Source: Pseudomonadota bacterium (GTDB taxonomy: Bacteria; Pseudomonadota; Alphaproteobacteria; Reyranellales; Reyranellaceae). Taken from it: 23,354 nucleotides of DNA. The position numbers and the translations under genes were made by a program. The DNA lies in the NCBI GenBank assembly GCA_023436825.1, contig JAEZHS010000416.1, forward strand, positions 1-23,354, written 5' to 3'. Shown here in pieces: positions 1,287 to 17,535 of the stretch. The stretch's first letter is position 1, and each line of letters begins with the position of its first letter. The notes under the pieces were generated by a model, which was given only the letters and a program-made list of their open reading frames with translations, had not been told where the DNA came from and did no database searches.

Positions 1287-1540
1287 CAGGCGAGCCTCTC
1301 GGCGCACTCGCGATGCGCCTCTGCCAAGGCACGTAGGTGACGGGTGTAGTTCGCCTCGACAATGTCGCGGTTGTAGCCAGAGGCTTTGGCGTGACGGTAA
1401 TCCGCGTGCGTAAAGGCATAGCTGCGCCGCCAGTCGGCCATATCGGCCAGCACCTGCATCCTCGCCGCCTGGCGCTCACCGTCGAGTTTGAGCGGCGTCA
1501 GGAGACCGGCCGGCATCGGCAGTAGAAGCTGGCCGTCCAT
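1286..1540 (-). CDS. Small phage protein of unknown function (84 aa)
   Basis: I do not recognise a family. The protein is soluble, charged and mostly helical in appearance. The central part (about 25-70) is rich in Arg, Tyr and Ala, with no metal-binding or signal motif. ATG 1540 abuts the TAG stop of the methyltransferase gene, and its own TGA overlaps the helicase ATG, so it is almost certainly translated as part of the operon. Lying between a methyltransferase and a helicase, it may be an accessory to one of them; that is inference from position only. Confidence 0.7.
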   Translation of the reverse strand: MDGQLLLPMPAGLLTPLKLDGERQAARMQVLADMADWRRSYAFTHADYRHAKASGYNRDIVEANYTRHLRALAEAHRECAERLA

Positions 1541-3535
1541 CTACGCCGCCTCCCGCATTTCCGGCGCGTCATTGTCGTTCGCCGGCAGGTTCGCACGGAC
1601 GATGGCGTAGGCCAGCATCGGGCAGACACTGTTGCCGCACATACGCACCTGCGCCGTCTTCGTCAGCGGCTTGCCGTTGGGGCCGATGACATTGATCCGG
1701 TAGGTCGAGGGGAAGCCCTGCGCCCGGTAGAGCTCGTGCGGCTGCAGCATGCGCATACCGATGTCGACGATCTCGTACGGCTCGCCATGGATATAGACCA
1801 ACGCGAAGTGGTCCTTCGCCGACGCCGTGTGCAAAGGCTCCTTGAGCGTCTGCCCGATCGTGCCAGTAGTGTAGTACTTGATCAGGAACGCCCGCACTTC
1901 GGCGACGTGCGTACCCTGGGCACATAGCGCCGGCACTGGCGTGGTCACCGGCCTGTCGCGCCGATCGCTGCCCTTCAAGCTGAGCAGATGCGCCGACACC
2001 AGCGCCTGCGGCCCGACCTTCGACACCACGGTCGACGTCGGTGTCCGCACATCGTGGCCCGGCTCCATATAATTGTGCTGGGCAAGCAATGCCGTCACGA
2101 GCGCATGACGGTTCTCCGTGGGTACGACGCGAGTGGGCTCTGTCACCGGGGCGCTGCGATCAGCGCCTCCGTTGCCTTCACCGTAGTAGGCGCTGAGGTG
2201 AGCAGTCACCAGGCCGATCGGCGCGGCGCCCCCGGGCCGCTTAATGAAGCTGTTGGCCGTTACTGTGCAGAGCGCATTGTCGACGCGCTGGCCGCTGCTA
2301 TTCGCCCGGAACTTCGTTATGACCGCCGAAACCAGGGCCTTCTCACCCCTATTCGCGCCGGTGATGGTCCGCACCGCCTCGGTTGGCGGCTGGCCGCGGA
2401 AGTCGCCGTGATGCGTGAGGTCGATCAGGAACGGGATCGCCGCCGCGGCCGCCTCGTGGTTCGGGCAACCCTCCGGACGTCCCTGCCGTGGCGTCGCTTC
2501 ACACCGCAGGCTGTGCCAGGGCCGCAGCACAGGCTGGACGAGAGATCCGACATTGGCATCCGGCGTCACGACGTTGAGCGGCGCCCGCACGCTCGAGGTG
2601 CGCGGCGTTTGCCCCGGCCGCTCGCCGTAGCGCGGCACGATGAACGGGTCGGCCGAATTGATCACATAGCGCCAGATGCCCAGCGCAATGCGCTTCAGCG
2701 TGTTGTCGACCAGCGGCCTGTCGCGCTCGAAGATCGATGGGCACGGGATCGACCAGTCGATGACGTCATCGGCCGCCGTGCGCCATGGCAGCAGCCCGCC
2801 GGCGCCGTCCTTGGCATGCGTCGGTTTCGGCCAGACGATCGGCTTGCCGTCACGCCGCGCGATCATGAACAGGCGCTTGCGGATCGTTGGCACGCCGTAG
2901 TCGCTGGCGCGCAGCTCGCGGTACTCGACGCGGTAGCCGAGCTGGCGAAACCGGCGCACGAAGCGCTGGAACGTGCGCCCTTTCGAAACCTTGCAAGGGA
3001 CCAGCCTGCCGGTGCCGTCGTCCACCAGCGGCCCCCAGTCCTTGAACTCCTCGACATTCTCCAGCCACACCTGGTCGGGCTTCACCAGCTTGGCGACGTG
3101 GTAAGCCACCCAGGCGAGATCCCGGATGCCCTTCTCGACCGGCTTGCTGCCTTTGGCTTTCGAATGGTGCTTGCAGTCAGGCGAGAACCACCAGCCGCGC
3201 ACCGGCAGCAGGCGATAGGGAATGCCGAGCTGCAGACAGCGCCGGCGCGAGGCCTCGGCAACCTCTTCACGCGGGTCGCCCTTCCAGACGTTGCGGATGA
3301 TGTGCCAGGTTTCGGGATGGTTCGCCTCATGCAGCGCCATCGCCTCGGGATCATGGTTCTTTGCCGCATCGGGTGAGCGGCCTCGGGCCCTCTTGATGCC
3401 CTCGCGCGCGCCGCCGCCGCCGGCGAAGTAGTCGAAGACGAGGCCGTCGCGCTCGGCGAGCGCGATGCGCGCCCGCAGGGCCAGCGGTGTGACGTGGTCT
3501 TGCGGCGGACGATCGAGGGGAAGAAGGGCGCTCAC
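1541..3535 (-). CDS. Phage DNA (cytosine-5)-methyltransferase with repeat-containing middle region
   Basis: This 664-residue protein carries C5-methyltransferase motifs in order: motif I FDYFAGGGG (34-42) for AdoMet binding, a motif IV-like SPDCKHHSKAKG (118-129) with the presumed nucleophile Cys121, ENV (159-161, motif VI), a motif VIII-like YGVPTIRKRLF, and a C-terminal MCGNSVCP motif X. Motif IV has DC where bacterial enzymes have PC, a form I recall from phage relatives. The protein is about 250 residues longer than a minimal Dcm. The extra part is a series of degenerate repeats of roughly 25-40 residues between motif VIII and the C-terminus. It starts with GTG 3535 in a GTGA overlap with the upstream gene. 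It probably protects phage DNA from restriction or marks it for regulation. The target sequence cannot be predicted from the protein. Confidence 0.9.
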   Translation of the reverse strand: MSALLPLDRPPQDHVTPLALRARIALAERDGLVFDYFAGGGGAREGIKRARGRSPDAAKNHDPEAMALHEANHPETWHIIRNVWKGDPREEVAEASRRRCLQLGIPYRLLPVRGWWFSPDCKHHSKAKGSKPVEKGIRDLAWVAYHVAKLVKPDQVWLENVEEFKDWGPLVDDGTGRLVPCKVSKGRTFQRFVRRFRQLGYRVEYRELRASDYGVPTIRKRLFMIARRDGKPIVWPKPTHAKDGAGGLLPWRTAADDVIDWSIPCPSIFERDRPLVDNTLKRIALGIWRYVINSADPFIVPRYGERPGQTPRTSSVRAPLNVVTPDANVGSLVQPVLRPWHSLRCEATPRQGRPEGCPNHEAAAAAIPFLIDLTHHGDFRGQPPTEAVRTITGANRGEKALVSAVITKFRANSSGQRVDNALCTVTANSFIKRPGGAAPIGLVTAHLSAYYGEGNGGADRSAPVTEPTRVVPTENRHALVTALLAQHNYMEPGHDVRTPTSTVVSKVGPQALVSAHLLSLKGSDRRDRPVTTPVPALCAQGTHVAEVRAFLIKYYTTGTIGQTLKEPLHTASAKDHFALVYIHGEPYEIVDIGMRMLQPHELYRAQGFPSTYRINVIGPNGKPLTKTAQVRMCGNSVCPMLAYAIVRANLPANDNDAPEMREAA

Positions 3536-4128
3536 TGCATCTTCTCGCGAATCGCGCGGCGCAGGCCCGCGACATCAGTGATGACGCCGTTCGTCATCGT
3601 CACTGCTGGACGGTCGACCTCGAGCACGTGCGTCTTGAACCAGCCGCCGTCGGCGCGCGGCTCACACTCATCGAGGAGCCAAGGCACCAACCGCTCGGAC
3701 CACAGCCCGAGCGAGCCCCAGCCCGAGCCGTTGTTCATCATGTTGATGTCGAAGACGCCGATCTCGGCCGGGCCGCCGATCGGTACGTGCCGACACGCGC
3801 CGACCCAATGCGTGTGGCGATAGGCTGCCTTCGCCGGAACGCCGGGCCTCGTCCAGGGACCCGTCCACTGGATGCGCACGAGCCCCCAGTCGGGCCAGTC
3901 CTTGTCGCGCCGGTGCGCCCACGACACGCCGAGCCGGCCAAGAATGCCGTACATCAGCGTCGGGTTGGTGTAGCGCTTGCTCTCGAAGTCACCCATGTGT
4001 GGGCGCAGCTCTGCCAGCGTCAATCCGCAGATCGCGGCGATGGCACCCGGGCCGCAGTTGGCGCCCCACGTCTCATGGGCGCGCTCGGCATCGGCAGCGG
4101 AGAAGCGTGGCAGGGCGGGCTTCGTCAC
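3532..4128 (-). CDS. Protein resembling a papain-fold cysteine peptidase, phage-associated
   Basis: The protein is 198 residues from GTG 4128, chosen because GTG and the upstream TGA overlap as GTGA; an ATG at 4176 would add 16 unlikely residues. Near the N-terminus is NCGPGAIAAICGLTL, the Cys-containing helix start typical of papain-like and C39-like folds. It is followed by RHTHWVGA, with a His at a beta-strand start, and then FDINMMNNGSGW, with Asp/Asn candidates. Together these could form a Cys-His-Asn/Asp triad. The order fits a small cysteine peptidase or transpeptidase, but the family is not one I can name. It has no signal peptide, so it is probably cytoplasmic. The gene precedes the C5 methyltransferase by an overlap. 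Confidence 0.65.
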   Translation of the reverse strand: MTKPALPRFSAADAERAHETWGANCGPGAIAAICGLTLAELRPHMGDFESKRYTNPTLMYGILGRLGVSWAHRRDKDWPDWGLVRIQWTGPWTRPGVPAKAAYRHTHWVGACRHVPIGGPAEIGVFDINMMNNGSGWGSLGLWSERLVPWLLDECEPRADGGWFKTHVLEVDRPAVTMTNGVITDVAGLRRAIREKMQ

Positions 4129-4307
4129 GACGGCAGTCTCGGGACGATGAAGAACAGCGCCGCCGCGATCGCCCAAGCGGCGCTTCGAATGTAAGTCCTA
4201 TGTTCGTTGTCCCTGTCACGGTCGATCGCATAACGGAGGCCAACGATCGAGCAGGACAGGCAAGAGGCAGTGCAGAGCCAAGCCATGATCTCGAAGAAGA
4301 TGTTCAT
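4125..4307 (-). CDS. Small two-segment membrane protein (60 aa)
   Basis: There are two hydrophobic stretches: residues about 4-24, with Cys at 12, 16 and 19, and about 43-56, separated by a strongly charged linker (RDRDNEHR). This predicts a two-pass inner-membrane peptide. A good Shine-Dalgarno sequence (GAGGTGA) lies upstream of ATG 4307, and the stop overlaps the next GTG start. Function is unknown. Small phage membrane proteins of this size can be holin-like or act on the host envelope, but nothing here decides between those. Confidence 0.65.
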   Translation of the reverse strand: MNIFFEIMAWLCTASCLSCSIVGLRYAIDRDRDNEHRTYIRSAAWAIAAALFFIVPRLPS

Positions 4308-4329
4308 GCCACCGTCACCTCGACCTGCT

Positions 4330-4605
4330 TCAAGCCACCCTCCAAACCCGCACCTTGCGCACGCCCTGCTCGGTCACCTGGCGCGAGGCGAAGCGGCGTG
4401 TGGTGCCCTGCTTCAGGTGGTAGGCCGAGGCGTTGATGCGGCGCTGCAGGGCGGTGATCGTCTCGCCCTGGTTGGGGCAGAGGGCGAAGGATTCGCCGAC
4501 CTTCATCATGGCCAGTGCCTCACGGATGCACGTCGGCGCGGGCGGGCGGCCGTGGCTCGGCGGCAGGGCGATGCCCTTCTCGATCTTGATGGGCGCCGCC
4601 ATCAT
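4330..4605 (-). CDS. Small phage protein of unknown function (91 aa)
   Basis: The start is ATG 4605, which overlaps the stop of the preceding 24-codon ORF as ATGA; an equally possible ATG is the next codon. The protein begins with a PIKIEKGIALPP segment. It continues with a REALAMMKVGESF helix and ends in basic, Arg-rich strands (TTRRFASRQV and VRKVRVWRVA). That C-terminus suggests a small DNA-binding or DNA-associated beta-rich domain, but I cannot name a family with certainty. Confidence 0.65.
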   Translation of the reverse strand: MMAAPIKIEKGIALPPSHGRPPAPTCIREALAMMKVGESFALCPNQGETITALQRRINASAYHLKQGTTRRFASRQVTEQGVRKVRVWRVA

Positions 4606-4676
4606 CGCGACACCTCGAGCAGGATGGGCAAGAAGCACAGCAGGCCGAGCGCGATCAGGATCAGGGCGGCGTTCAT
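4602..4676 (-). CDS. 24-residue single-pass membrane peptide
   Basis: The very short ORF reads as a near-continuous hydrophobic helix, ALILIALGLLCFLPILLEV, after a Met-Asn start. ATG 4676 lies one base after the upstream TGA, and its TGA overlaps the next ATG as ATGA. Such double coupling in a packed operon favours real translation. Function is unknown. It could equally be a coupling ORF whose product has no role. Confidence 0.5.
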   Translation of the reverse strand: MNAALILIALGLLCFLPILLEVSR

Positions 4677-4677
4677 C

Positions 4678-4968
4678 TCAGTGCACCTTGTCGACCGGCA
4701 GCATCTCGATCGCCGTCGCTTCGAAGCCGCAGGCGGCGGATAGCGCCTTGACGCAGTGCGCCAGCATCGGCGCGCGCATCGCCGCCGGCGCCTGGGCAAT
4801 GATTTCGCCCGCGAGCTGCTGCAGAGCGCCCAGAAGCTCGGTCGCCTGGGCCTGGCTGCCCGCGCGGGCGCGCACCACGCCGCGCACCGCGACGCCCAGT
4901 TGGCAGTGCAGGCATTCGGGGTCGCCCCCCCCTACGTTCACCAGGCGCGCGACCTCATCGTCGCTCAT
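4678..4968 (-). CDS. Small phage protein with CxxC pair (96 aa)
   Basis: The chosen start, ATG 4968, overlaps the upstream stop as ATGA. The N-terminal part contains GDPECLHCQLG, a Cys-x-x-Cys pair at about 18-21. The rest is mostly Ala-rich helix with two further Cys near residues 68 and 75. Four cysteines could bind a metal, but the spacing is not a standard zinc finger. The family is not recognised. Confidence 0.65.
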   Translation of the reverse strand: MSDDEVARLVNVGGGDPECLHCQLGVAVRGVVRARAGSQAQATELLGALQQLAGEIIAQAPAAMRAPMLAHCVKALSAACGFEATAIEMLPVDKVH

Positions 4969-5294
4969 CGCGTCACCTGCCTGCAGGCGATCAGGGTGCC
5001 GCTCGGTTGCGTGCGCACCTGGCCGGGGAGATCGACGTTGCACGCCGTGGCGCCGGTGAACGTCCACGGCTCGCGCCCCTTGATGCGCAGCGGCTGCCAA
5101 TCGTCGTTCGGCGGCTTGACCCAGATCTGCCAGCCCTTCGCGGGACGCTCGGCGGCGCGGACACTGCCGGCAAAGCCGGCCAGCAGCGCCAGGCCGACGC
5201 CGACCATCACGCCCGCGACCAGCGAGCGAGCATCGGGCCGCCAGCGGCGTTCGGGGCGGCGGCACCGAGGGGTGGGACCGAGCACGATGTTCAT
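4965..5294 (-). CDS. Exported or membrane-anchored small protein (109 aa)
   Basis: A basic N-terminal stretch (residues about 10-23) is followed by a long hydrophobic segment, LVAGVMVGVGLALLAGFAGS, and then VRAAE, a plausible signal-peptidase I site. The mature part is about 60 residues, with two Cys (ACNVDL and ACRQVT) that could form a disulfide in the periplasm. ATG 5294 overlaps the upstream stop and its stop overlaps the next ATG. The role is unknown; export from an early phage operon would fit envelope modification or superinfection exclusion. Confidence 0.65.
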   Translation of the reverse strand: MNIVLGPTPRCRRPERRWRPDARSLVAGVMVGVGLALLAGFAGSVRAAERPAKGWQIWVKPPNDDWQPLRIKGREPWTFTGATACNVDLPGQVRTQPSGTLIACRQVTR

Positions 5295-5782
5295 GGCTGC
5301 CTCTCCATTTCGTGGGCTTCCAGGGCACGCTGCACCGCGGGACTGATGCCGAACCGATCGGCGATGTCCTTGCGCGACAGGCCGGCGCCGCGCGCCGCCT
5401 TCAACCGGCGCAGCGCCTCGGCCGACAGCGGCGGCCATCGCCGGCCCCGCCGCCGAGGCGGCCATCCGTGGCCGCGGGCGATGCGCGAAAGCGTGCCCAT
5501 GCTGACGGCGAAGCGGTCGGCAATCTCCTGGCGGGTCAGTTCCTGCGATCGCCAGGCCAGCTCGATCTGCTCGAGCCGGGCGCCTTCCCAGGCGGGCGTG
5601 CGCCGCCGCCAGCAATGGCGACGATGCTTCGCCCGCGGGCGGCGGCCCCAGCCCTGGCGGCGCGCCATGGCGATCAGGCGCGAGCGCGACGTGCCGAGCG
5701 CGGCGGCGATGTCCTCGATCCGGCCGGGGCCTGCATAGGCCTCCTGGGCGATCGCCAGCCGCTCGGACGTCCAGGCGCTCAT
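5291..5782 (-). CDS. Triple helix-turn-helix DNA-binding protein (163 aa)
   Basis: Three similar units are visible. Each has a tri-helical HTH core of the form IxxxxAxxxxxSxxxLxxxAxxxGW: about residues 3-45 (IEDIAAALGTSRSRLIAMAR), 65-108 (EIADRFAVSMGTLSRIARGH) and 118-160 (DIADRFGISPAVQRALEAHE). The first two end in GWGRRPR and GWPPRRR, basic arms likely to touch DNA. It resembles the small terminase/transposase-type or resolvase-type HTH found in phages, but no catalytic domain is attached. Both ends overlap neighbouring genes. It probably binds a long, repeated DNA site, perhaps as a replication or late-gene regulator; that role is inference. Confidence 0.72.
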   Translation of the reverse strand: MSAWTSERLAIAQEAYAGPGRIEDIAAALGTSRSRLIAMARRQGWGRRPRAKHRRHCWRRRTPAWEGARLEQIELAWRSQELTRQEIADRFAVSMGTLSRIARGHGWPPRRRGRRWPPLSAEALRRLKAARGAGLSRKDIADRFGISPAVQRALEAHEMERQP

Positions 5783-6144
5783 GGCGTGTCCCTCGGCTCG
5801 CCGACGAGGATCGCCCAGACGAGGTCCTTGGGATCATGGCCGAGCGGCAGCGGGATCTCCTGCCAGTGCTCGCGAGCCACCACGCGATAGAGCAGCTCCG
5901 CGCTGCCGAAGTGGCGGTAGATCGCCCGGACGTGGACTTCCGCCACCGCTGCAATCTGCCGGGCACTGGCGCGATATCGCCCCTCCTGGGCGAGCGTGAT
6001 CACGGCTTGGACCAGCGCTTCCTTGACGATCGCGACCTGGTGCTCGCGAGCCGGCGAGCGGTAGGGTCGACGATTGGCGCACGGCGCGTCCGCCAAAGTT
6101 TCCCGTGAAACAGGCGGCACACAGGCCGCATCGATCGTCTGCAT
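5779..6144 (-). CDS. TetR-like HTH protein in phage early operon
   Basis: The central part of this 121-residue protein reads like a TetR N-terminal domain: ALVQAVITLAQEGRYRAS, then RQIAAVAEVHVRAIYRHFGS and a following helix. The short C-terminus lacks a full TetR ligand-binding domain, so it is a stand-alone DNA-binding module. I use ATG 6144 because a GTG at 6168 has no Shine-Dalgarno sequence and lies only 10 nt from the end of the tRNA. The stop overlaps the triple-HTH gene. It may be a late-gene or accessory regulator. Confidence 0.65.
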   Translation of the reverse strand: MQTIDAACVPPVSRETLADAPCANRRPYRSPAREHQVAIVKEALVQAVITLAQEGRYRASARQIAAVAEVHVRAIYRHFGSAELLYRVVAREHWQEIPLPLGHDPKDLVWAILVGEPRDTP

Positions 6145-6178
6145 CCGAGCCCCCGCTCGCTTTGCCACTCAACACAAC

Positions 6179-6255
6179 TGGTAGCGGGGGCTGGATTTGA
6201 ACCAGCGACCTCCTGGTTATGAGCCAGGCGAGCTTCCGGGCTGCTCTACCCCGCA
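6179..6255 (-). tRNA. Initiator-type tRNA-Met (CAT anticodon) inside the prophage operon
   Basis: Read on the minus strand, 77 nt fold into a complete cloverleaf with an encoded CCA. The acceptor stem has a U-U mismatch at 1:72 with six pairs below it. The D stem has A11-U24, the anticodon loop is CTCATAA, the T arm is GCTGG-TTCAAAT-CCAGC, and the discriminator is A73. The unpaired 1:72 and the A11-U24 pair are hallmarks of bacterial initiator tRNA, and elongator tRNA-Met lacks both. The anticodon stem is CCTGG/CCAGG, so two of the three usual G-C pairs are kept and 29:41 is U-A. It sits between the CII-like and TetR-like genes on the operon's strand, so it is probably cut from the leftward transcript. 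Confidence 0.9.
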
Positions 6256-6260
6256 GGAAT

Positions 6261-6722
6261 TCACGGTCGTCGCTTGACCACCAAGGTCTTGTTCAGTTCG
6301 GCCAGCTGGCGCTGCATGCGCTGCAGCTTGGCCTTCAGGCCCGAGATCTCGTGCGGCTGCAGCGAGCCGTCCTGCACGGCATCGCGGACGCCTTTCAGCA
6401 TCTCGGCGGCGTCGATGCAGGACTGCATGGCGGCCGCGACCGGATCGGCCTGGCTGGCGACCGGCGCGACGGCCTCGCCCTTCAACAGCTCGATGAAGAT
6501 CGGCGCGTGGCCGCTCTTGATCAGGAGCATCTCCATGGCGCGGACCTGCAGGAACGACGGCGTCTGCGCGGCGTCGCCGTCACACCACTTGTCGATCAGC
6601 GAGCCCGACGCGCGCAGCCCGATCGCGGCCAGCGCCGTCGAGATCGCCTCGCTGCCCAGCAGCGCCTTCGCCTGGGTGCAGGCATCCTCGATCGTGTCGG
6701 GCTTACGGAGTTTCTGTTGCAT
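6261..6722 (-). CDS. CII/CP76-like phage regulatory protein (153 aa)
   Basis: The N-terminal half has a helical HTH-like core. LGSEAISTALAAIG and LIDKWCDGDAAQTPSFLQVRAMEMLLIKSGHAPI resemble the DNA-binding part of phage CII/CP76 proteins, where a substrate-like loop is followed by a helix listing the lookup signature. The C-terminal half (about 95-150) is a predicted coiled coil, with heptads in LKAKLQRMQRQLAELNKTL, likely for oligomerisation. A Shine-Dalgarno sequence (GGGGAG) lies 10 nt before ATG 6722. The gene ends 6 nt before the tRNA. It probably controls lysogeny or early-lytic choice, but the family assignment is tentative. Confidence 0.6.
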   Translation of the reverse strand: MQQKLRKPDTIEDACTQAKALLGSEAISTALAAIGLRASGSLIDKWCDGDAAQTPSFLQVRAMEMLLIKSGHAPIFIELLKGEAVAPVASQADPVAAAMQSCIDAAEMLKGVRDAVQDGSLQPHEISGLKAKLQRMQRQLAELNKTLVVKRRP

Positions 6723-6737
6723 TGTGCGAAAGCTCCC

Positions 6738-6902
6738 CTACGGCCGCACAAGCGCGCCGCAACCCATGCGGGTAGCGTCCGCCGCGATGAAGCGCCCCGA
6801 GGACGAATGGTTCCTGCGTATCGCCGCGGTCGCCCCCGACCCGGCCGGCGAGGCGGTATGGGTGTTGCTGGCTCCGGCCCCCGTAAGGCTCAGCGCGCTC
6901 AT
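6738..6902 (-). CDS. Short Ala/Ser/Gly-rich ORF (54 aa)
   Basis: The ORF begins at ATG 6902 in an ATGA overlap with the stop of the Cro-like gene and ends at TAG 6738, just within the Shine-Dalgarno of the next gene. This translational coupling is the main support. The product is low-complexity (Ala, Ser, Gly, Thr) with no recognisable domain. It may be a real small protein or only a coupling ORF. Confidence 0.4.
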   Translation of the reverse strand: MSALSLTGAGASNTHTASPAGSGATAAIRRNHSSSGRFIAADATRMGCGALVRP

Positions 6903-7123
6903 GCCGCCGTCGCTTTCTTCGGCGACTTCGCCTGCGCCTGGCGCTCCGCGTCGAGGTAGGCGCGGACGCGATCGATGGTCGCGACGGTGACGCCGGCGCC
7001 CGCCCTCAAGCGGCCGACAAACTTGCCGTCATTGACGGCATGACGGCCGAACGTCGTCTCGGCCATCTCCTTCTCGCGAAGGAAGGCATCGATATCGGCC
7101 AGCAGGTCGCTGATCGTGGACAT
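6899..7123 (-). CDS. Cro-like HTH regulator, first gene of leftward operon
   Basis: The 74-residue protein starts at ATG 7123. An upstream ATG at 7135 lies inside the proposed -10 box and is rejected. The core ADIDAFLREKEMAETTFGR, followed by DGKFVGRLRAG and a third helix, fits a short HTH protein with a basic tail (QAKSPKKATAA). It is divergent from the CI-like repressor across an operator-bearing intergenic region, the classic position of Cro. The start codon lies about 7 nt from the -10, so the message may be leaderless or nearly so. It presumably competes with the repressor at the operators. Confidence 0.7.
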   Translation of the reverse strand: MSTISDLLADIDAFLREKEMAETTFGRHAVNDGKFVGRLRAGAGVTVATIDRVRAYLDAERQAQAKSPKKATAA

Positions 7124-7130
7124 GGCGCCC

Positions 7131-7175
7131 ACCATACGGTGGGCAATAGCCCACAGTCAATGGGCTATATCCCAT
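7131..7175 (-). promoter_or_regulatory. Leftward promoter with two palindromic operators
   Basis: On the minus strand, TTGACT (7160-7155) and TATGGT (7136-7131) form -35 and -10 boxes separated by 18 nt. The spacer is almost filled by the palindrome GTGGGCAATAGCCCAC (7139-7154). A second palindrome, ATGGGCTATATCCCAT (7160-7175), lies upstream and touches the -35. The centres are exactly 21 bp apart, two helical turns. The CI-like repressor is the expected ligand. Confidence 0.75.
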
Positions 7176-7194
7176 TTTGCCCATCAAGCACCGC

Positions 7195-7210
7195 GTGGGA
7201 AACGTCCCAC
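7195..7210. promoter_or_regulatory. Third palindromic operator, abutting repressor start
   Basis: GTGGGAAACGTCCCAC is a 16-bp palindrome of the same family (RTGGG-N6-CCCAY) and ends one base before the ATG of the repressor gene. It may serve for autorepression. With no clear Shine-Dalgarno sequence between it and the ATG, the repressor message may be leaderless, as lambda cI is from its maintenance promoter. Confidence 0.65.
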
Positions 7211-7873
7211 ATGGATTCTCGGGAGCGTCTCCTCAAGGAAATCGATCGGCGGATGAAGCCGCTCGGCCTGACCGATATAACGCTGGCAAAAAAGGCGGGC
7301 CTTGGTCGTGATGCCGTTCGCGATATTCGCCGGCGCCCAAACATGAGCCCGGGCTACGATACCGTGCGCGCAATTGCCGGGGCTTTGGGATGCACCCTCG
7401 GCGATCTGACTGGCGAGCACCGCCGCACACCCATCAAGGATGGTGAAAACATCACGGTATTTGAAGTGCCGACGTTCGCCCAGTCAGGGCCGGGCGGCGA
7501 CGGCGACCTCGAGATCTCGCGCGACCATGCGAGCGGAGAGTATACGTTCCCGGCCGCTGGCTTTCGTCAGCGCTACGGTGCGGCGCCGGATGGCGTGTTC
7601 ATCGACGAGGTGCGAGGCGACAGCAATGCACCGACTCTCATGCCGGGCGAGCCAGTGATGATCGATACGCGCGATCGCCGCCCCTCTCCTCCAGGATTTT
7701 TCCTGTGCTGGGACGGCATCGGCATGGTCATGAAGCGGATCGAGTTCGTGCCCAACAGCGACCCGCCGAAGATCCTCCTGAAAAGCGACAATCCACGCTA
7801 CGAGACCTACGAGCGTTTGCTTGAAGAGGTCATGATCTACGGCCGCCTCATCGGGCGGTGGCAGCGCTTCTAG
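7211..7873 (+). CDS. CI/LexA-type phage repressor with S24 peptidase-like domain
   Basis: The 220-residue protein has an N-terminal XRE HTH (about 18-66, LAKKAGLGRDAVRDIRRRP then a recognition-type helix). A linker follows, then a LexA-like S24 domain from about residue 110. The catalytic pair is present: Ser138 in RGDSNAPTLMPGE and Lys175 in MVMKRIEF, 37 residues apart as in LexA. A self-cleavage Ala-Gly at the expected 34-38 residues before Ser138 is not seen. It is divergent from the Cro-like gene and convergent with the lipoprotein gene. It probably maintains lysogeny by binding the five palindromes around it. Confidence 0.88.
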   Translation: MDSRERLLKEIDRRMKPLGLTDITLAKKAGLGRDAVRDIRRRPNMSPGYDTVRAIAGALGCTLGDLTGEHRRTPIKDGENITVFEVPTFAQSGPGGDGDLEISRDHASGEYTFPAAGFRQRYGAAPDGVFIDEVRGDSNAPTLMPGEPVMIDTRDRRPSPPGFFLCWDGIGMVMKRIEFVPNSDPPKILLKSDNPRYETYERLLEEVMIYGRLIGRWQRF

Positions 7874-7877
7874 CGCT

Positions 7878-8129
7878 CTACTCGCGGCAGGCGAACAAGT
7901 AGTACTTCTGGATGCAGTACTGATCGCCGCAGCGCTGGCTGAGCGGCGTCGCGCGCTTCTTGTACATGGCGCACGATTCGTTGGCCGTCGCCAACAACTG
8001 ATCGGGCGACGCGCCATTCCCTTGCAGGATCACCTTATCTTGCGAGATGTCCGCAACGACGGGCTGACCAGCGCAGGAGCCAACAGCCAGCGCGGACACG
8101 ACCAGAACCAAGCTCGTTGTAATTCTCAT
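7878..8129 (-). CDS. Small lipoprotein inside the immunity region
   Basis: The start is ATG 8129, with a strong Shine-Dalgarno sequence (GGAGGGA); longer ORFs from 8183 are rejected. The signal peptide runs MRITTSLVLVVSALAVGSC with a lipobox AVGSC, so Cys19 becomes the lipidated residue. The mature part of about 65 residues has four further cysteines (ESCAM, QRCGD, QYCIQ, FACRE) and ends at the membrane face. A possible own promoter (TTGACG at 8183-8178, CAGATT at 8160-8155, 17-nt spacer) lies upstream. Expressed from a lysogen, it could be a superinfection-exclusion or other conversion factor. The gene lies between the repressor and the right promoter, the usual moron position. Confidence 0.72.
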   Translation of the reverse strand: MRITTSLVLVVSALAVGSCAGQPVVADISQDKVILQGNGASPDQLLATANESCAMYKKRATPLSQRCGDQYCIQKYYLFACRE

Positions 8130-8195
8130 GAGTTTTTCCCTCCCCCTGCTGGCAAATCTGGCCTCAGCGTTATCCACCGTCAACAGTTTTGCTTA

Positions 8196-8240
8196 GTGGG
8201 CTATTGCCCATTGACAGTGGGATATTGCCCACGATAGGTT
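8196..8240 (+). promoter_or_regulatory. Rightward promoter with two palindromic operators
   Basis: TTGACA (8211-8216) is a perfect -35, and TAGGTT (8235-8240) is a -10 candidate after 18 nt. The palindrome GTGGGATATTGCCCAC (8217-8232) fills the spacer, and GTGGGCTATTGCCCAT (8196-8211) lies upstream. Their centres are 21 bp apart, the same geometry as the leftward promoter. It should drive the rightward operon starting at 8380 and be repressed in the lysogen. Confidence 0.75.
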
Positions 8241-8336
8241 TGCCCATCGTCGCCACCCGGCGCCGATCAGCCGAACGCCAGGGCACCAGCTCAAGTAACG
8301 AGGGGCCAAGGCCCTGCGGCTGCAGACACGCCACCG

Positions 8337-8363
8337 CCCGCGCATCGCCCCACGATGCGCGGG
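8337..8363 (+). promoter_or_regulatory. Strong leader hairpin before first gene of rightward operon
   Basis: CCCGCGCATCG (8337-8347) and CGATGCGCGGG (8353-8363) pair perfectly over 11 bp with a 5-nt loop, CCCCA. It lies in the roughly 135-nt leader between the right promoter and ATG 8380, ending 16 nt before the start codon. No T-run follows, so it is not an ordinary intrinsic terminator. It could act in attenuation, RNA processing or control of the first gene's translation. Confidence 0.5.
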
Positions 8364-8379
8364 CACCAGCGGGGAAACG

Positions 8380-8580
8380 ATGGCCAAGCCACTCAGCGAC
8401 AACCCCCGCCTCCCCTTGCGTTTCGAGGGTGAGGTACGGCCGACCACGATCGGCCTCTTCCTGAACGACAACCCTGACGACGTCGATCCGATCGCTCTGC
8501 ACGCCGCGCTGGCGCGCGGCGAGGCCTATCGCGGCGGCGGCGGTGCTGCGCCGGAATGGTCGGTGGAGCTCGCCCGATGA
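8380..8580 (+). CDS. Small protein of unknown function, first in rightward operon (66 aa)
   Basis: ATG 8380 has a weak Shine-Dalgarno sequence (GGGGA). The stop overlaps the next ATG as ATGA. The protein is soluble, with a DNPDDVDPIALHAALARGEA stretch that looks like an acidic helix and a Gly-rich tail. No family is recognised. As the first gene behind the right promoter it would be expressed earliest. Confidence 0.6.
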   Translation: MAKPLSDNPRLPLRFEGEVRPTTIGLFLNDNPDDVDPIALHAALARGEAYRGGGGAAPEWSVELAR

Positions 8581-8795
8581 TGACCGACCAGAAGCTCGTC
8601 GCGCGTATCAAGCGCAACAGCAAGTACTGGGGCCAGACGCCAGCCAATCAGTGGTTCGACGTCAGAATCTCCGATGGCAGTGACCATTACTGCGTGCGTG
8701 GCAACGGCAATGCCTATCGCATCGCTGACGTCGCCTTCGGCGTCCGTCGGGTCGACGGCACAGTCGTCGACATCAGCCCGGTGCGCGCCCGATGA
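8577..8795 (+). CDS. Small phage protein of unknown function (72 aa)
   Basis: ATG 8577 overlaps the previous stop as ATGA. A second ATG follows immediately and either may be used. The protein has a predicted all-beta look: WFDVRISDGSDHYCVRGNGN and AFGVRRVDGTVVDISPVRAR. No signal peptide or metal motif is seen. It belongs to the block of small unknown genes. Confidence 0.6.
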   Translation: MMTDQKLVARIKRNSKYWGQTPANQWFDVRISDGSDHYCVRGNGNAYRIADVAFGVRRVDGTVVDISPVRAR

Positions 8796-9118
8796 CCGAC
8801 GCTCTCTTCAGCTTCGACGACATCGTCGGCCTCGACGTCGAGCACCCGCGCGTGCGGCGCTTCAACGAACAGGTCGCCGGTATCGCGATCCAGCGGCCGC
8901 AGCTCCCGTCGGGCCTCGCCGTCTACGCCATACTGCCGCCGCCGGAGGCGGTAACGCAGCTGCGCACGCGAATGGCTGCGGTCATCGCCGAGGTGTTCGC
9001 CACCAACGGCAACGTCACCCACGACGACCTCACCCGCGCGGGCTTCACCGGCAAGGAGATCGCCACCCACTTCACCGCCGCCCGTCGGGCGGCACGCGTC
9101 GAGCGCATGGTGGTGTGA
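8792..9118 (+). CDS. Unknown phage protein, possible HTH (108 aa)
   Basis: The start overlaps the upstream stop as ATGA. After an acidic N-terminus (FSFDDIVGLDVE), the C-terminal third (about 66-100) reads NVTHDDLTRAGFTGKEIATHF, a possible short HTH or winged-helix segment followed by an Arg-rich helix. No close family is recognised. It might bind DNA, but this is a weak inference. Confidence 0.6.
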   Translation: MTDALFSFDDIVGLDVEHPRVRRFNEQVAGIAIQRPQLPSGLAVYAILPPPEAVTQLRTRMAAVIAEVFATNGNVTHDDLTRAGFTGKEIATHFTAARRAARVERMVV

Positions 9119-9119
9119 C

Positions 9120-9386
9120 ATGGCAGCGCCTGCAGCCCGCGACCTCGAGCGCATGGTCGCCGCCGACCATCCCGACCGCCTGCTCACCCTGCCGGCGACG
9201 ACGCGGCGGAACATCTTCCTTTACGTCGACCGCACGCACGAGAGGCCGCTGTGCGTCGTCAAGATCGTCGACGGCAAGGCCGAGGTCATTGCCCAGTTCG
9301 CCAACCCCGGCGACTGCGCTTTCCTCTTCTCGCCGGACGCCAGCACCTTGCCGGCGCCGATCGTCCGTCAACTGGCAGGCCAGTGA
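9120..9386 (+). CDS. Unknown phage protein (88 aa)
   Basis: ATG 9120 lies one base after the upstream stop. The middle is beta-rich (RNIFLYVDRTHERPLCVVKI) and ends in an amphipathic stretch. No signal, metal site or catalytic motif is visible. Its TGA overlaps the next start by one base. Confidence 0.6.
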   Translation: MAAPAARDLERMVAADHPDRLLTLPATTRRNIFLYVDRTHERPLCVVKIVDGKAEVIAQFANPGDCAFLFSPDASTLPAPIVRQLAGQ

Positions 9387-9730
9387 TGCCCGAGCCCTTC
9401 CAGATCCCCGACACTGTCGCGACCACGGATCCGCGACCACCGGCGCGCTCGGCTGATGGCCATCGTCTCGCCCGGCTGAAGCCCGCCAACCACCAGCAGC
9501 TCGAGGAGACCGTCGAGCTTTTGGGTCGCGTGTCGAAGGGCATGGTGAAGGTCCGCACCATCCCTCAGCCGCAGCGCGACGGGACGATCCCCAAGCCGGG
9601 CATCTGGGCCGTCTACCCCTTCCGCTTGGTCGACGCGGTCACGCGCCGCCAGCTGCTGCGCGCCGACCTCGCCGACCTGCCCTGGCAGGGTGCCGGGCCC
9701 GATCCCGACCAGGAGCAGGAGCGCACATGA
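9386..9730 (+). CDS. Unknown phage protein (114 aa)
   Basis: ATG 9386 overlaps the previous TGA by one base (TGATG). The protein has a disordered Pro-rich N-terminus, a helical mid-part (NHQQLEETVELLGRVSKGM), then a beta-rich WAVYPFRLVDAV and an acidic Gln-rich tail. The family is not recognised. Confidence 0.6.
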   Translation: MPEPFQIPDTVATTDPRPPARSADGHRLARLKPANHQQLEETVELLGRVSKGMVKVRTIPQPQRDGTIPKPGIWAVYPFRLVDAVTRRQLLRADLADLPWQGAGPDPDQEQERT

Positions 9731-9957
9731 CGACGAACATCCGTCCCCTGCCTCTCGGGCAGGGCGCCGAGCGTGCCTGGCGCATCGCCCAGCTCGTGCG
9801 CGAGGGCGCCATGGACCGCAACGCTGCTCAGTTCTCGTTGTCGCTTCTCTATCAGCAAACCGATAACGCTCGCCTACGGCACCTGTGTGCCCGCATCGCC
9901 GAAGGCCTCCCGGCGCCACCATCAGCCGAGCCGATCGTCGAGAGCTTCGCGCATTAG
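9727..9957 (+). CDS. Small helical protein of unknown function (76 aa)
   Basis: The start overlaps the upstream stop as ATGA. The protein looks like an all-alpha bundle (ERAWRIAQLVREG, RLRHLCARIAEGL) with a Pro-rich tail. It is followed by 37 nt with a strong Shine-Dalgarno sequence for the GapR-like gene. Confidence 0.6.
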   Translation: MTTNIRPLPLGQGAERAWRIAQLVREGAMDRNAAQFSLSLLYQQTDNARLRHLCARIAEGLPAPPSAEPIVESFAH

Positions 9958-9994
9958 CCGCGCCTTCTCAGTTCATCAAGGGGAGACAGTCATC

Positions 9995-10666
9995 GTGGCC
10001 ACCATTGGCAGGAATACCGTCGCCGGCGCTGAGTTGCAGGGCTACATCGACCGTGTCGAGAGCATCAACTCGCAGATCGCCGGGCTGAACGACGACAAGG
10101 CCGCCGTCATGTCGGAGGCCAAGGCGCGCGGCTTCTCGAAGAAGCGCATCGCCGAAGTCATCAAGATTCGAAAGCAGAAGCCGCAGGACAGACAGGAGGC
10201 CGAGGCGGAGCTCGACATGTACCTGCACGCCATCGGCATGGCGAGCGAGCCGCCCCTCTTGCGCTACATCGCCCACGCCGGCGTCGATACCGCGGTGCGC
10301 GAACAGGTGATCGAGGCGATGAAGGATTTCGTGCCGCCACATGGCCTGGGCGACATCACTGTCAACATGGGCGGCAAGCCCTTCCGGCTGTATCGCAACA
10401 AGCAGAACGAGGTCGAGATCGCCGAGGTGCTGGACAAGCCCCTGCCCGGCCTCAAGACGCCGCGCCAGCCCAAGCCCAAGGCCGACGTCCCCAACTGCAG
10501 CGAGGACCAGGCCGAAGAGATGGGCCGCCAGTTCGCCCGCGACAACCGGCCGATCATCGAGAACCCGTTCCCCTACGGAGATCCGCGCCGCCCACGCTTC
10601 GACAAGGGCTGGCGTCGCGAATCGGGCAACGACGGCATGGGCCCCCAGGAAGACGACGAGGATTAG
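9995..10666 (+). CDS. GapR-like (DUF2312) N-domain fused to an RMF/CrpP-like C-terminal motif
   Basis: The start is GTG 9995 with Shine-Dalgarno AAGGGGAG; the longer upstream frame is a shadow. Residues 9-82 match GapR: GAELQGYIDRVESIN, DKAAVMSEAKARGFSKKRI, and an end of AELDMYLHAIGM. GapR binds overtwisted DNA in alphaproteobacteria and is normally a protein of about 80-90 residues. Residues 83-165 are an unassigned middle part with a beta-rich VNMGGKPFRLYRNKQNEVEI. Residues 170-216 (RQFARDNRPIIENPFPYG, then RRPRFDKGWRRE) match the pattern of Rmf/CrpP-like peptides. At 223 residues this is a multi-domain fusion. It abuts an AAA+ ATPase gene, three bases later. Confidence 0.75.
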   Translation: MATIGRNTVAGAELQGYIDRVESINSQIAGLNDDKAAVMSEAKARGFSKKRIAEVIKIRKQKPQDRQEAEAELDMYLHAIGMASEPPLLRYIAHAGVDTAVREQVIEAMKDFVPPHGLGDITVNMGGKPFRLYRNKQNEVEIAEVLDKPLPGLKTPRQPKPKADVPNCSEDQAEEMGRQFARDNRPIIENPFPYGDPRRPRFDKGWRRESGNDGMGPQEDDED

Positions 10667-10669
10667 CCC

Positions 10670-11635
10670 GTGGTCGACGATGACGACGACAGCGACCGGA
10701 TGCGGCCCAACAGCTTTGGCGTGCTGCTGTCTCCCAGCGAGGCCGAGGAGCCTATCCTTGCCAAGGGCGTGCGCGGTGCTCTGACCGAGTGGCTGACCGA
10801 GATCTGGTCCGCCGACGAGCTGCGCGAAGCCGGACTGAAGCCGCGCCATCGCGCCCTGTTCACCGGCAAGCCCGGTACCGGCAAGACCACCCTCGGCCAT
10901 CATCTCGCGGCCCGCCTCGGCCTCAACATGCTGGTCGTTCAGCCCGAGCTGGTGCAGAGCAAGTGGGTCAACCAGACGGGCGAGCAGATCGGGCAGCTGT
11001 TCCGAATGGCCGCCAAGGCCGATCCTCCCCTGCTGCTCTTCCTCGACGAGTTCGACGCGCTGGCAAGCGCTCGCTCGAATGCCGAGCAGTCCGCCGATCG
11101 CGAGCACAACAAGAACGTCAACGTGCTTCTGCAACGGATCGAGCAGCACAAGGGGTTCATCATCGCCGCGACGAACTTCGGTCAACGCCTCGACCCCGCC
11201 ATCTGGCGTCGCTTCGACGTCCACATCGAGATCGAGCTGCCCGGCCGCTTCGAGCGCGAGCGCATCCTGAAACGGTACCTCGAGCCCTGGGGCCTGCCGA
11301 AGTCGGCGCTGCGGCTCCTGGCCGAGGCGTTCGAGACGGCAAGCCCAGCGCTCATGCGGCAGTTCGCCGAGGCGATCAAGCGCAACCTGGTGATCGGGCC
11401 CAAGGTCGGCTGGAACATGCAGCGCGAAGCCGTGGTCGAGCGCGTGCTCGCCGGCATCCAGCCTCACCCCGACCTCGGCAAGCCGCGTCTGTGGAGCCTC
11501 GGCCCCAAGGACCCAGCTGTCCGCGACCTCGTGTGGCCGCTGCCGCGCAGAGAGGAGATCGCGGCAGAACCGCCATCCGCCGATGAACGCGACGGCGGCA
11601 ACGTCGTGGCACTGTCGAAGCGAGCCGCACCGTGA
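10670..11635 (+). CDS. AAA+ ATPase of the FtsH/spastin-like type
   Basis: The 321-residue protein starts at GTG 10670, 3 nt after the previous stop. It has Walker A GKPGTGKT (66-73), Walker B LLLFLDEFD (121-129), sensor 1 AATN with Asn169, and arginine-finger candidates Arg180/Arg181 in WRRFDVHIEI. An acidic N-terminal tip and a helical C-terminus lacking any protease or nuclease domain complete it. It resembles classical-clade AAA unfoldases or remodellers that work as hexamers. The neighbouring GapR-like fusion is the obvious candidate partner. The ATPase role is secure; its substrate is not known. Confidence 0.88.
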   Translation: MVDDDDDSDRMRPNSFGVLLSPSEAEEPILAKGVRGALTEWLTEIWSADELREAGLKPRHRALFTGKPGTGKTTLGHHLAARLGLNMLVVQPELVQSKWVNQTGEQIGQLFRMAAKADPPLLLFLDEFDALASARSNAEQSADREHNKNVNVLLQRIEQHKGFIIAATNFGQRLDPAIWRRFDVHIEIELPGRFERERILKRYLEPWGLPKSALRLLAEAFETASPALMRQFAEAIKRNLVIGPKVGWNMQREAVVERVLAGIQPHPDLGKPRLWSLGPKDPAVRDLVWPLPRREEIAAEPPSADERDGGNVVALSKRAAP

Positions 11636-11919
11636 ACGATCCTGTTCCCATCTACACAGCTGAGCTGCTCGCCCGGTTTGGTGAGGCCATCGCCGCATAT
11701 CGCCGAGCCCATGGCGGTGGCGTCGACCCGCGTCGCCTCGCCACGGCGATGTTCAATTCCGGCGTCGCCCTGGTCGACCGCGACCGCAAGGCCGCCCTCG
11801 TCGACGAACGCGTCTATGCCAGCGCGCTCGAGCGCTGCCACGCCGCAGAGCGACGCGCACCGGTTCATCGCCTGCCGGCGCCGGCCGTGTGGGCTTCATT
11901 GGCGAAGGAGGGAACATGA
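11632..11919 (+). CDS. Unknown phage protein (95 aa)
   Basis: The start is GTG 11632 in a GTGA overlap with the stop of the AAA+ gene. The protein is helical and Ala/Arg-rich (ELLARFGEAIAAYRRAH, VYASALERCHAAERRA), with no recognisable motif. Coupling to the ATPase suggests it is produced in step with it. Confidence 0.6.
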   Translation: MNDPVPIYTAELLARFGEAIAAYRRAHGGGVDPRRLATAMFNSGVALVDRDRKAALVDERVYASALERCHAAERRAPVHRLPAPAVWASLAKEGT

Positions 11920-12158: not shown

Positions 12159-12167
12159 GGCTGCATC

Positions 12168-12566: not shown

Positions 12567-12569
12567 CCC

Positions 12570-13580: not shown

Positions 13581-13588
13581 CCGCGGAT

Positions 13589-13879: not shown

Positions 13880-13913
13880 GCTGTCGGCTACCACGCAGCG
13901 GAGGCATAGGACC

Positions 13914-15756: not shown

Positions 15757-16103
15757 GCACGGACCTCTCCCTCACCGAGCTCGCCGGCCAGATGGGCTGG
15801 TCGCGCCGCACGCTCGTGCGCAAGCTGGCCGAGCATGAGATTCCAACCTATGGTTCCGGCCGGCTGGAGCGCATCGAGCCACAGAACGTCGCGCTCCTGA
15901 AGGCCAAGGAGGCGCGGTGCCGTACAAGCTCTTCCCACCTGGGCACCGGGGCCCCTGCTGGTACGCGCGGGGCACGGACAGCACGGGCCCCTTCGAAGTC
16001 TCGACAGGCAAAGATGCTAAACGCGATGCTACGCGGTGGGTCGAAGAGGTATTCCTCCCCAGCCGGGCGCGTCGTCGCGTTCCCGGCATCGGCGAAACCG
16101 TAG
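15753..16103 (+). CDS. Excisionase-like HTH protein with C-terminus overlapping integrase
   Basis: Residues 1-55 are an HTH of the MerR/excisionase type (TELAGQMGWSRRTLVRKLAE, then EIPTYGSGRLERIEPQNVALL). A Ser/Arg/Ala-rich tail continues in the +1-shifted frame of the integrase to TGA 16103, giving 116 residues. The last 61 codons overlap the integrase reading frame. The start overlaps the upstream stop as ATGA. It is likely to control excision. The long tail may be real, or the native protein may end earlier if a frameshift has occurred. Confidence 0.55.
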   Translation: MSTDLSLTELAGQMGWSRRTLVRKLAEHEIPTYGSGRLERIEPQNVALLKAKEARCRTSSSHLGTGAPAGTRGARTARAPSKSRQAKMLNAMLRGGSKRYSSPAGRVVAFPASAKP

Positions 16104-16966
16104 GCTTCGCCGACGCTGCCCGCTTCTACAAGGCCGCCAAGCCACATCTCAGCCGCAGCGACATCCGCAAGATCGATGCGATCGCGGCCGAGATCGGCGA
16201 CATTGATTGCCGGCTGGTCAACCATGCCCGCCTCGTCGAGGCCGCCGACGCGCTGAAGCCCGGCCTCAAGCCGTCCACCCAGAACCGCTACGTCATCGGG
16301 CCCGGGGCGGCGGTGTTGCACTACGCCAATGAAAACAAGTGGTGCGAGTACCAGCGCATCCGGAAGCTGAAGGAGAGCCGCAAATCGCCGCGGAGCCCGG
16401 CCACGCCGGACACGATGGCCAAGCTGTTCGAGCACCTCGAGGATCCTCCGCACGAGCTCGCGCCGCAGTGGAACGGCGTCGATCCCAACCTTCCCTACAA
16501 ACGCCTGCTGCTTGCCCTGCTGTTCGAGACCGGACTGCGCCTCGGTCATCTCCTGAGCGTCGTCTGGACCAACATCCACCTGCCTGACGGGCGCATCGGC
16601 GTGGCCATCCCCAAGAGCGACGAGCTCGCTCTGGTGCCGATCTCGGCCGTGACGGTGGCGATGCTGGCCAACCTGCCGGACGCCGAGAAGACCGGCCGGC
16701 TGTTCCCGTGGTCAACGCGGCGCGGGGTCTATGCCTGGCTCGACCGCGTCCGCAAGCGGGCCAAGGTCCACTACACCCCTCACCTGAGCCGCCACGCCCT
16801 CGCCACGGCCGCCCAGGACATCCCCGACAAGAAGGCCGCAGAACTGGGCGTGTGGCTCGATCCACGCAGCCTTCACCGATACCAGCACGTGAAGCCCGAC
16901 CCCATTCCGGGGCGAGATGCGGGCTTCCTGATGGCCACGAAGTCGGCAGCGAGGAAAGCCGGCTGA
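15917..16966 (+). CDS. int: Tyrosine site-specific integrase
   Basis: The 349-residue protein has GTG 15917 with a strong internal Shine-Dalgarno sequence, AAGGAGG (15906-15912), inside the excisionase frame. The N-terminal MPYKLFPPGHRGPCWYARG matches other alphaproteobacterial phage integrases. The catalytic set is visible: Arg in TGLRLGHLLSVVW, a Lys in the beta-hairpin (IPKSDELALVPIS), HLSRHALAT with the His-x-x-Arg, and the nucleophile Tyr in HRYQHVKPD preceded by LGVWLDPRS. The usual second His/Trp is Trp in LGVW. It would integrate the phage at the tRNA-Glu 3' end directly downstream. Confidence 0.92.
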   Translation: MPYKLFPPGHRGPCWYARGTDSTGPFEVSTGKDAKRDATRWVEEVFLPSRARRRVPGIGETVGFADAARFYKAAKPHLSRSDIRKIDAIAAEIGDIDCRLVNHARLVEAADALKPGLKPSTQNRYVIGPGAAVLHYANENKWCEYQRIRKLKESRKSPRSPATPDTMAKLFEHLEDPPHELAPQWNGVDPNLPYKRLLLALLFETGLRLGHLLSVVWTNIHLPDGRIGVAIPKSDELALVPISAVTVAMLANLPDAEKTGRLFPWSTRRGVYAWLDRVRKRAKVHYTPHLSRHALATAAQDIPDKKAAELGVWLDPRSLHRYQHVKPDPIPGRDAGFLMATKSAARKAG

Positions 16967-17036
16967 CCAAGACCGTTTATGGGGACGCGCCGGTGACAGC
17001 GGGGGCAAGTCATTGATTTCCCTGAGGCCGGCCTCT

Positions 17037-17082
17037 CCCTCTCAAGGCTGAAACACGGGTTCGAATCCCGTAGGGAGCGCCA
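17037..17082 (+). repeat. tRNA-Glu(CUC) 3' fragment, likely attR
   Basis: The sequence from the anticodon loop (CTCTCAA, anticodon CUC) through the variable region, T arm (ACGGG-TTCGAAT-CCCGT) and acceptor strand to CCA forms the 3' part of a tRNA-Glu. The 5' half is absent: upstream bases cannot form the D arm or the acceptor partner. This is what integration at a tRNA 3' end leaves at one junction. The intact gene should be at the left end of the prophage. Confidence 0.8.
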
Positions 17083-17535
17083 ACGAAATCCTTTGAAATT
17101 GCTGCTTTCTTCACTCGCGCGTCTCGTTGCGCGTTGTGGACAAGTGGCAGGGATGGACAGAAATGGACCGCGAAGCTGGGGCAGGCGCCTTGGAATTTCC
17201 GGCTTCTTCCGCGTCACCGCTCCCCGGTTCCTGGTCTTTGCGAACGCAGCGAGGAATGGGGCCAAATATGCCCGCCGTGTTCGCGGTCGTGAGCGCCTGC
17301 AATCCTAACCGAGATCGTGACGAGGCTCGCGCGTACTGTCGCCGACGAGATGCGATCCACGCCCTCCATCGCCAGAGACGCTCCGCGCTGCAGTTTCCAC
17401 AAGTTCACCGACGGCCGCGCCTGTACGCAGGCGCGCACGCCGTTCAGCGTCGTCTATCAGCCGACCGGCGACGGCCGAGCGAGCTCCAGCTCGGGCAACG
17501 CAAGGCCGTCGAAGCCCAGCGGCGGCGGCGTCAAG
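17083..17535. other. Region without a supported gene
   Basis: This 453-bp stretch follows the tRNA fragment. Plus- and minus-strand ORFs exist but have an Arg/Ala/Ser-rich shadow look, and none has a plausible Shine-Dalgarno or domain. It may be degenerate host or element sequence left by an earlier integration at the same tRNA. Confidence 0.5.

Follow-up and report, generated by a model that had tools for sequence, protein, structure and literature searches.

A prophage initiator tRNA gene with a U29-A41 anticodon-stem pair that recurs in viruses and was unseen in surveyed Pseudomonadota genomes

The window, i.e., the whole stretch of 23,354 nucleotides analyzed here, covers the right end of a prophage, the left end of which falls beyond it. 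The host can be assigned to the Reyranella lineage because the protein encoded at positions 20940-22715 in the right flank is 97% identical to a protein from a groundwater Rhodospirillales MAG and 90% identical to one from Reyranella soli. The gene for the tyrosine integrase (15917..16966, plus strand; PF00589, 40.6 bits) adjoins an attachment-site remnant (17037..17083, plus strand) that represents the 3' part of the host tRNA-Glu(CUC) gene and matches the tRNA-Glu of a relative (L002) at 100% over 47 nt; the identical piece shared with that tRNA-Glu(CUC) is 46-47 nt long. As read from the sequence, the prophage is integrated in tRNA-Glu(CUC) and has its right end at 17037-17083. Another 3' fragment of tRNA-Glu(CUC), found at 18170-18216, forms a direct repeat with this remnant (94% identity, 1133 nt apart) and may be a scar from another insertion into this site. 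The prophage also encodes a protein with a GapR-like DNA-binding domain (PF10073; 9968-10666, plus strand).

The only tRNA gene that ARAGORN detected in the window lies ∼10.8 kb inside the prophage, measured from the right attachment remnant, within a leftward gene run that starts opposite a CI-like repressor. The latter combines an HTH domain with an S24 peptidase domain (7211..7873, plus strand; PHROG 4, E 1.8e-24; HTH_3 and Peptidase_S24; the open reading frame searched was 7040-7873, and the start ATG at 7211 was read from the sequence). The genes in the divergent run follow the order Cro-position gene, CII-like gene, tRNA, TetR_N-like gene, and HTH gene, with a cytosine methylase gene further to the left. 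The Cro-position gene (6899..7135, minus strand) belongs to PHROG 7669, a family of unknown function, and its position opposite cI suggests a Cro-like function. The CII-like regulator gene (6261..6722, minus strand; PHROG 101, E 1.9e-5) scores 21.2 bits against the Pfam CP76 profile, under its cut-off of 26, and its stop codon is separated from the tRNA by 5 nt. Directly downstream of the tRNA is an HTH open reading frame similar to TetR_N (5779..6168, minus strand; PF00440, 26.1 bits with a cut-off of 24), for which the ATG at 6144 is the likely start. Three operator-like palindromes of the form TGGGN6CCCA are located between cI and the operon (7140..7209, no strand assigned), and two more are found at 8197-8231; the window contains 6 such palindromes versus 0.41 expected, a number reached in 0 of 100 shuffles. 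A promoter scan near the operon returned one weak -35/-10 match (1 found, 0.4 expected). This arrangement looks like a CI-repressor-controlled early operon of the prophage. Since cI faces the gene run with operator-like palindromes in between, expression of the tRNA is expected during lytic growth but not in the lysogen. The initial annotation had placed the tRNA gene inside a phage operon, and the integrase, the attachment remnant, and the repressor-flanked gene run bear this out.

The tRNA gene itself (6179..6255, minus strand; ARAGORN and Rfam RF00005) encodes an initiator-type tRNA-Met(CAU) of 77 nt, including the CCA end, and scores 61.9 bits against RF00005 (cut-off 29, E 1.9e-11). Its distinguishing marks are U1·U72, A11-U24, G30-C40, G31-C39, U29-A41, the anticodon loop CUCAUAA, and the encoded CCA; its predicted fold is a cloverleaf with 1:72 unpaired. 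The anticodon CAU occupies 6219..6221 (minus strand; ARAGORN and alignment) in a loop that is the same as in the host, while U29 (6226, minus strand) pairs with A41 (6214, minus strand), as placed by alignment with four Reyranella initiators that have A29-U41. The initial description of this tRNA (U-U at 1:72, A11-U24, CCA, and U-A at 29:41) was confirmed by ARAGORN, Rfam, and the sequence. Among the features expected of bacterial initiators, the CAU anticodon in a tRNA fold, the lack of a strong 1:72 pair, and A11-U24 are all in place; of the three G-C pairs (29:41, 30:40, and 31:39), described in the accessible part of PMC4611024 as universal in initiators and as a basis of P-site affinity, the first is replaced by U-A.

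A closely similar gene is found in the 52,777-bp viral contig L232, where a tRNA that is identical at 74 of 77 positions occupies the same place. There, too, the gap from the CII-like stop codon to the tRNA is 5 nt, and the flanking products are a CII-like protein with 43% identity and a TetR_N-like protein with 48% identity over 86 residues. In this one further phage, the tRNA has kept its place and sequence better than its two neighbor genes. The shared position, together with the ∼10.8-kb distance from the attachment remnant, led to rejection of the idea of a host gene at the prophage edge. The tRNA core pattern matched L232 only among the viral contigs, and a search with an alignment of 16 CII-like proteins returned 27 stretches, of which the one relative was again this contig. 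Scanning the viral contigs with the two neighbor proteins gave no pattern match, and a second scan gave 8 stretches and 0 relatives; a protein search for relatives of the operon in 75 genomes of the family found none, an empty answer that by itself shows nothing. When window positions 1-17100 were compared with named phages by megablast, three records were hit, two of them through the tRNA only and the third through a stretch of helicase sequence that makes up 4% of the query. A different viral contig (L226) combines an initiator tRNA identical at 70 of 77 positions, also with U29-A41, with homologs of the ASCH-like and DUF5131 proteins of the window. Both the window (6146-6159) and L232 (about 3335-3347) have a hairpin just 5' of the TetR_N-like start codon, with folding z values of -2.5 and -1.4, respectively, for these two sequences only; its arms read CGAGC/GCTCG in the former and GGAGC/GCTCC in the latter, and therefore represent a paired change.

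Four of the six Reyranella genomes searched yielded a single full-length initiator match each, downstream of the 5S rRNA, in draft assemblies that may collapse copies. No match was obtained in G003 or in G001, the closest Reyranella assembly, probably because MAGs lose rRNA operons. The four initiators are identical to each other, and the phage tRNA is identical at 66 of 77 positions to these initiators, which come from relatives of the exact host. The initial annotation had named an identical host copy as the finding that would speak against a phage-specific gene; the phage tRNA differs from the Reyranella initiators at 11 of 77 positions (1, 9, 20, 27, 29, 41, 43, 50, 51, 63, and 72). Nine of these differences affect paired positions or 1:72. 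Pairs 27:43, 29:41, and 51:63 are altered on both sides with pairing kept, and 50:64 has changed from U·G to C-G. The 1·72 position is also altered on both sides, from C·A to U·U, keeping the mismatch that an initiator requires. In the anticodon arm, only the stem pairs 27:43 and 29:41 differ from the host, and the whole loop is unchanged. With its stem changes compensated and the 1·72 mismatch kept, the tRNA shows the pattern expected from selection for initiator function.

The 29:41 pair is A-U in all four Reyranella initiators. A pattern survey of 289 alphaproteobacterial genomes found A29-U41 in 167, G29-C41 in 1, and U29-A41 in 0, with none of the three in 121. The initial annotation had assumed G-C as the normal state of 29:41, which is the wrong baseline for Alphaproteobacteria. 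Because these hosts lack the first G-C pair too, the three-G-C rule does not define alphaproteobacterial initiators, and, at the level of sequence, what sets the phage tRNA apart is an A-U pair in flipped orientation and not the loss of a G-C pair. In the wider set of 398 Pseudomonadota genomes, the U29-A41 pattern was found in none, while 269 had an R29-Y41 match and 129 were without a match; the patterns fix the D stem, the loop, and the inner pairs, so that initiators departing from these are missed, and pattern-negative genomes may have other sequences or missing rRNA operons. At the neighboring pair, U27-A43 is present in all 19 distinct host sequences from 34 loci, versus C27-G43 in the phage (for 30 of these loci, A29-U41 was part of the search pattern and is therefore given by construction). 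According to the accessible text of PMC8522696, E. coli and the alphaproteobacterium Bosea sp. have the same anticodon stem-loop, a wording by which 29:41 would be G-C in the latter. In one alphaproteobacterial genome (G015:C1:2943714-2943751), a second initiator core, the stem of which is a variant (CAAGG at 27-31), lies 1.6 kb from a normal one, perhaps on a mobile element.

Among viruses, the U29-A41 pattern is present in at least 120 contigs, as compared with 3 contigs with C29-G41 in the whole collection; the host surveys cover Pseudomonadota, and the C29-G41 count covers viral contigs alone. A generic scan for viral initiators, which had at least 120 matches, gave, among the 80 loci listed, 38 with A-U, 23 with G-C, and 19 with U-A at 29:41, and some of the A-U and G-C loci near contig ends are probably host genes. 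From the 80 loci listed in the U29-A41 scan, one partial locus was dropped, leaving 79 complete and 63 distinct tRNAs. Their 1:72 position is a mismatch in 40, A-U or U-A in 19, G-C in 2, and G·U in 2. At the stem positions that the pattern does not constrain, the bases pair in 54 to 63 of the 63 sequences. Two other changes were considered as phage-type features linked to U29-A41 and are unsupported as such: among the 67 distinct viral initiators of the generic scan, A9 accompanies U29-A41 in 7 of 15 versus 15 of 52 others (p 0.22), and C27-G43 does so in 7 of 15 versus 12 of 52 (p 0.10).

Named phages were compared in a biased sample of 27 records, hand-picked from lists ranked by similarity to U29-A41 tRNAs, with the 29:41 classes read by eye: U-A in 10, A-U in 9, and G-C in 8. 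The 10 phages with alphaproteobacterial hosts include eight with U-A and two with A-U (Rhizobium phage RHph_TM3_3_3 and Komagataeibacter phage phiKX1), whereas the remaining 17 records include two with U-A, both of them Xanthomonas phages, and 15 with A-U or G-C. Related Caulobacter phages account for five of the 10 named U29-A41 cases; the neighbor genes in one record (Acinetobacter MD-2021a) are bacterial, and three records are without annotation. The tRNAs of RcXuper, RR1-A, and PHB04 have an altered D stem. Position 33 of tRNAs is a near-universal U; the initiator-like tRNA of Janthinobacterium phage Donnerlittchen (L320 1501-1577) has C at this position, in the loop CCCAUAA. In the initiator-like tRNAs of Rhizobium phage RHph_TM3_3_3 (L338) and Mycobacterium phage Phabba (L333), 31:39 reads as C-G instead of G-C, which is another break of the three-G-C rule.

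Phage initiator tRNAs as such are already known. The initial annotation regarded them as unusual, a view contradicted by the 9 tRNA-fMet genes among the 25 tRNA genes in phage-related sequences of Sinorhizobium meliloti, as reported in the accessible part of PMC11476347, and by tRNA-fMet annotations in phages. As in the present case, the prophages of S. meliloti (phiLM21-like and others) are temperate alphaproteobacterial phages with initiator tRNA genes, and these genes mostly cluster apart from the rrn copies; the accessible text of the two reports (PMC11476347 and PMC12429752) does not discuss the 29:41 pair. Phage phiLM21 likewise has U29-A41 but differs in the neighborhood of the tRNA, which is flanked there by an HNH endonuclease gene on one side and a hypothetical gene on the other, close to the terminase. 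The Caulobacter phages CcrBL9, RB23, CcrColossus, CcrPW, and CcrBL10 of the Dolichocephalovirinae have tRNAs, annotated as tRNA-Met or tRNA-fMet, that resemble the one in the window in having U29-A41 and the inner G-C pairs; these phages differ in being very large (221-322 kb), and CcrBL9, CcrBL10, and RB23 have a second tRNA-Met nearby in the stretches examined. The initiator of alphaproteobacterial rrn operons shares the identity elements and the loop with the phage tRNA and differs in having A29-U41 and U27-A43 instead of U29-A41 and C27-G43. What appears to be new is the presence of U29-A41 in viruses versus 0 of 398 Pseudomonadota genomes; this contrast between phage and host at 29:41 was not found in the accessible open-access literature that was searched, a set outside which most subscription papers fall.

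The simplest reading of why a phage would carry an initiator is that the tRNA is a functional lytic-phase supplement to the host initiator pool with a tolerated phage-type stem, and we consider this the probable one. The tRNA would be transcribed in the lytic phase from the CI-repressed leftward early operon, along with the Cro-position, CII-like, TetR_N-like, and HTH genes and probably further leftward genes, e.g., the DNA methylase gene. RNase P and 3' processing would free it from the polycistronic RNA, and it would undergo charging and formylation in the same way as the host initiator and be used in initiation. The initiator pool, for which the host seems to have a single gene, located after the 5S rRNA, would thereby be enlarged; the phage would benefit from the added initiator. 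Initiator dose appears to matter, since E. coli with additional fMet genes partly survives a tRNA-fMet-cleaving VapC and is protected from lamotrigine, a drug targeting IF2 (accessible parts of PMC8522696 and PMC10486304, respectively). As to the stem, 16S rRNA residues A1339 and G1338 contact pairs 30:40 and 29:41, and swapping 30:40 to C-G lowers translation 20-fold (available excerpts of PMC11497404, for both statements, and PMC4611024, for the contacts). The E. coli 3GC mutant U29:A41/C30:G40/A31:U39 is described in the accessible text of PMC10486304 as inactive in initiation, so that U29-A41 could cost activity, although this mutant is a triple change. The phage tRNA should still initiate because it retains 30:40 and 31:39: the flip leaves the two inner G-C pairs and would be a tolerated variant, one found repeatedly in phage initiators and most of all in those of alphaproteobacterial phages. 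C29-G41 would place the amino group of G41 at the docking spot of G1338, where A41 has no amino group, and this structural difference may explain the frequent U-A and the near absence of C-G among viral initiators.

The same observations allow a stronger claim, namely, that U29-A41 is a selected phage-type signature, strongest in alphaproteobacterial phages, which works on host ribosomes (it retains the inner G-C pairs and, in contrast to C29-G41, leaves the minor groove free of an amino group) and either escapes a host factor that reads the stem or shifts start-codon choice to phage messages; this is possible, if unlikely. Nuclease evasion was proposed at the outset, in which the phage initiator replaces a host initiator destroyed by a defense nuclease, VapC-like or other, with the altered stem making it a poorer substrate. 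The accessible text of PMC8522696 reports that the VapC of Bosea, itself an alphaproteobacterium, cleaves the tRNA-fMet of E. coli, with the partial rescue by extra genes mentioned above; phage tRNAs elsewhere evade anticodon nucleases (PMC10264068, in its accessible part); U29-A41 recurs in phages and was unseen in the surveyed hosts; and weak matches to the VapC family are present in five of six Reyranella genomes. Enteric VapC, however, is reported to cut between A38 and C39 (PMC4105405, accessible excerpt), and this site and the loop CUCAUAA are identical in phage and host, so that the altered cleavage site or loop expected for anticodon-nuclease evasion is absent. The phage tRNAs described as evading tRNA-cutting defenses (PMC10264068 and PMC11555353, accessible parts) likewise differ from the host in the anticodon arm, but those in PMC10264068 do so by loop mutations, and the same excerpt states that phages generally avoided encoding tRNA-fMet against an anticodon-targeting VapC. 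The fMet-specific VapC family NF010285 was found above its curated cut-off in none of the six Reyranella genomes (sub-threshold hits in five), and the many unlike phages with U29-A41 would require a nuclease common to their hosts. With the loop and cut site unchanged and no Reyranella genome passing the fMet-VapC cut-off, VapC evasion was downgraded as the leading reading, and nuclease evasion is considered rather unlikely.

That the gene is neutral cargo, an initiator that was captured and now drifts without serving any function, with the 29:41 flip as one of its changes, would fit its 11 differences from the host initiator and the odd features of several phage initiator-like tRNAs. It is, however, quite unlikely, given the compensated stem changes, the retained 1:72 mismatch, and the better conservation of the gene than of its neighbors; the 3 viral contigs with C29-G41 as against at least 120 with U29-A41 also indicate that 29:41 is not free to drift. 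A role in RNA processing, whereby maturation of the tRNA separates the CII-like message from the downstream genes and gives them distinct mRNA stability, with any use in translation secondary, would agree with the start of the tRNA 5 nt past the CII-like stop codon and with the hairpin just before the next start codon, both features being common to the two phages. Any tRNA would do for this purpose, making the initiator identity elements needless, and such a role is very unlikely. The idea that the phage tRNA stands in for a host tRNA that integration has damaged, as in tRNA-dependent lysogeny, is suggested by the tyrosine integrase and the tRNA attachment site but is extremely improbable. In the described systems, the shared piece measures ∼10 bp and the tRNA carried is of the same isotype (PMC10865867, accessible part), whereas the 46-47 nt shared here are long enough to rebuild the tRNA. 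The attachment site is moreover in tRNA-Glu(CUC) and not in an initiator gene, and replacement of the attachment-site tRNA was rejected on this ground.

What was observed directly comprises the gene, its structure, identity elements, and position, its conservation in one further phage, and the difference between hosts and viruses at 29:41. The recurrence of U29-A41 in related viruses, unseen in the surveyed bacteria, is a testable oddity and does not prove that a new mechanism exists. Found repeatedly in viruses but not in the hosts surveyed, and with a nearly absent C29-G41 counterpart, this stem variant amounts to a natural experiment on the tolerance of the ribosomal P site, and it also bears on the question of why phages bring their own initiator.
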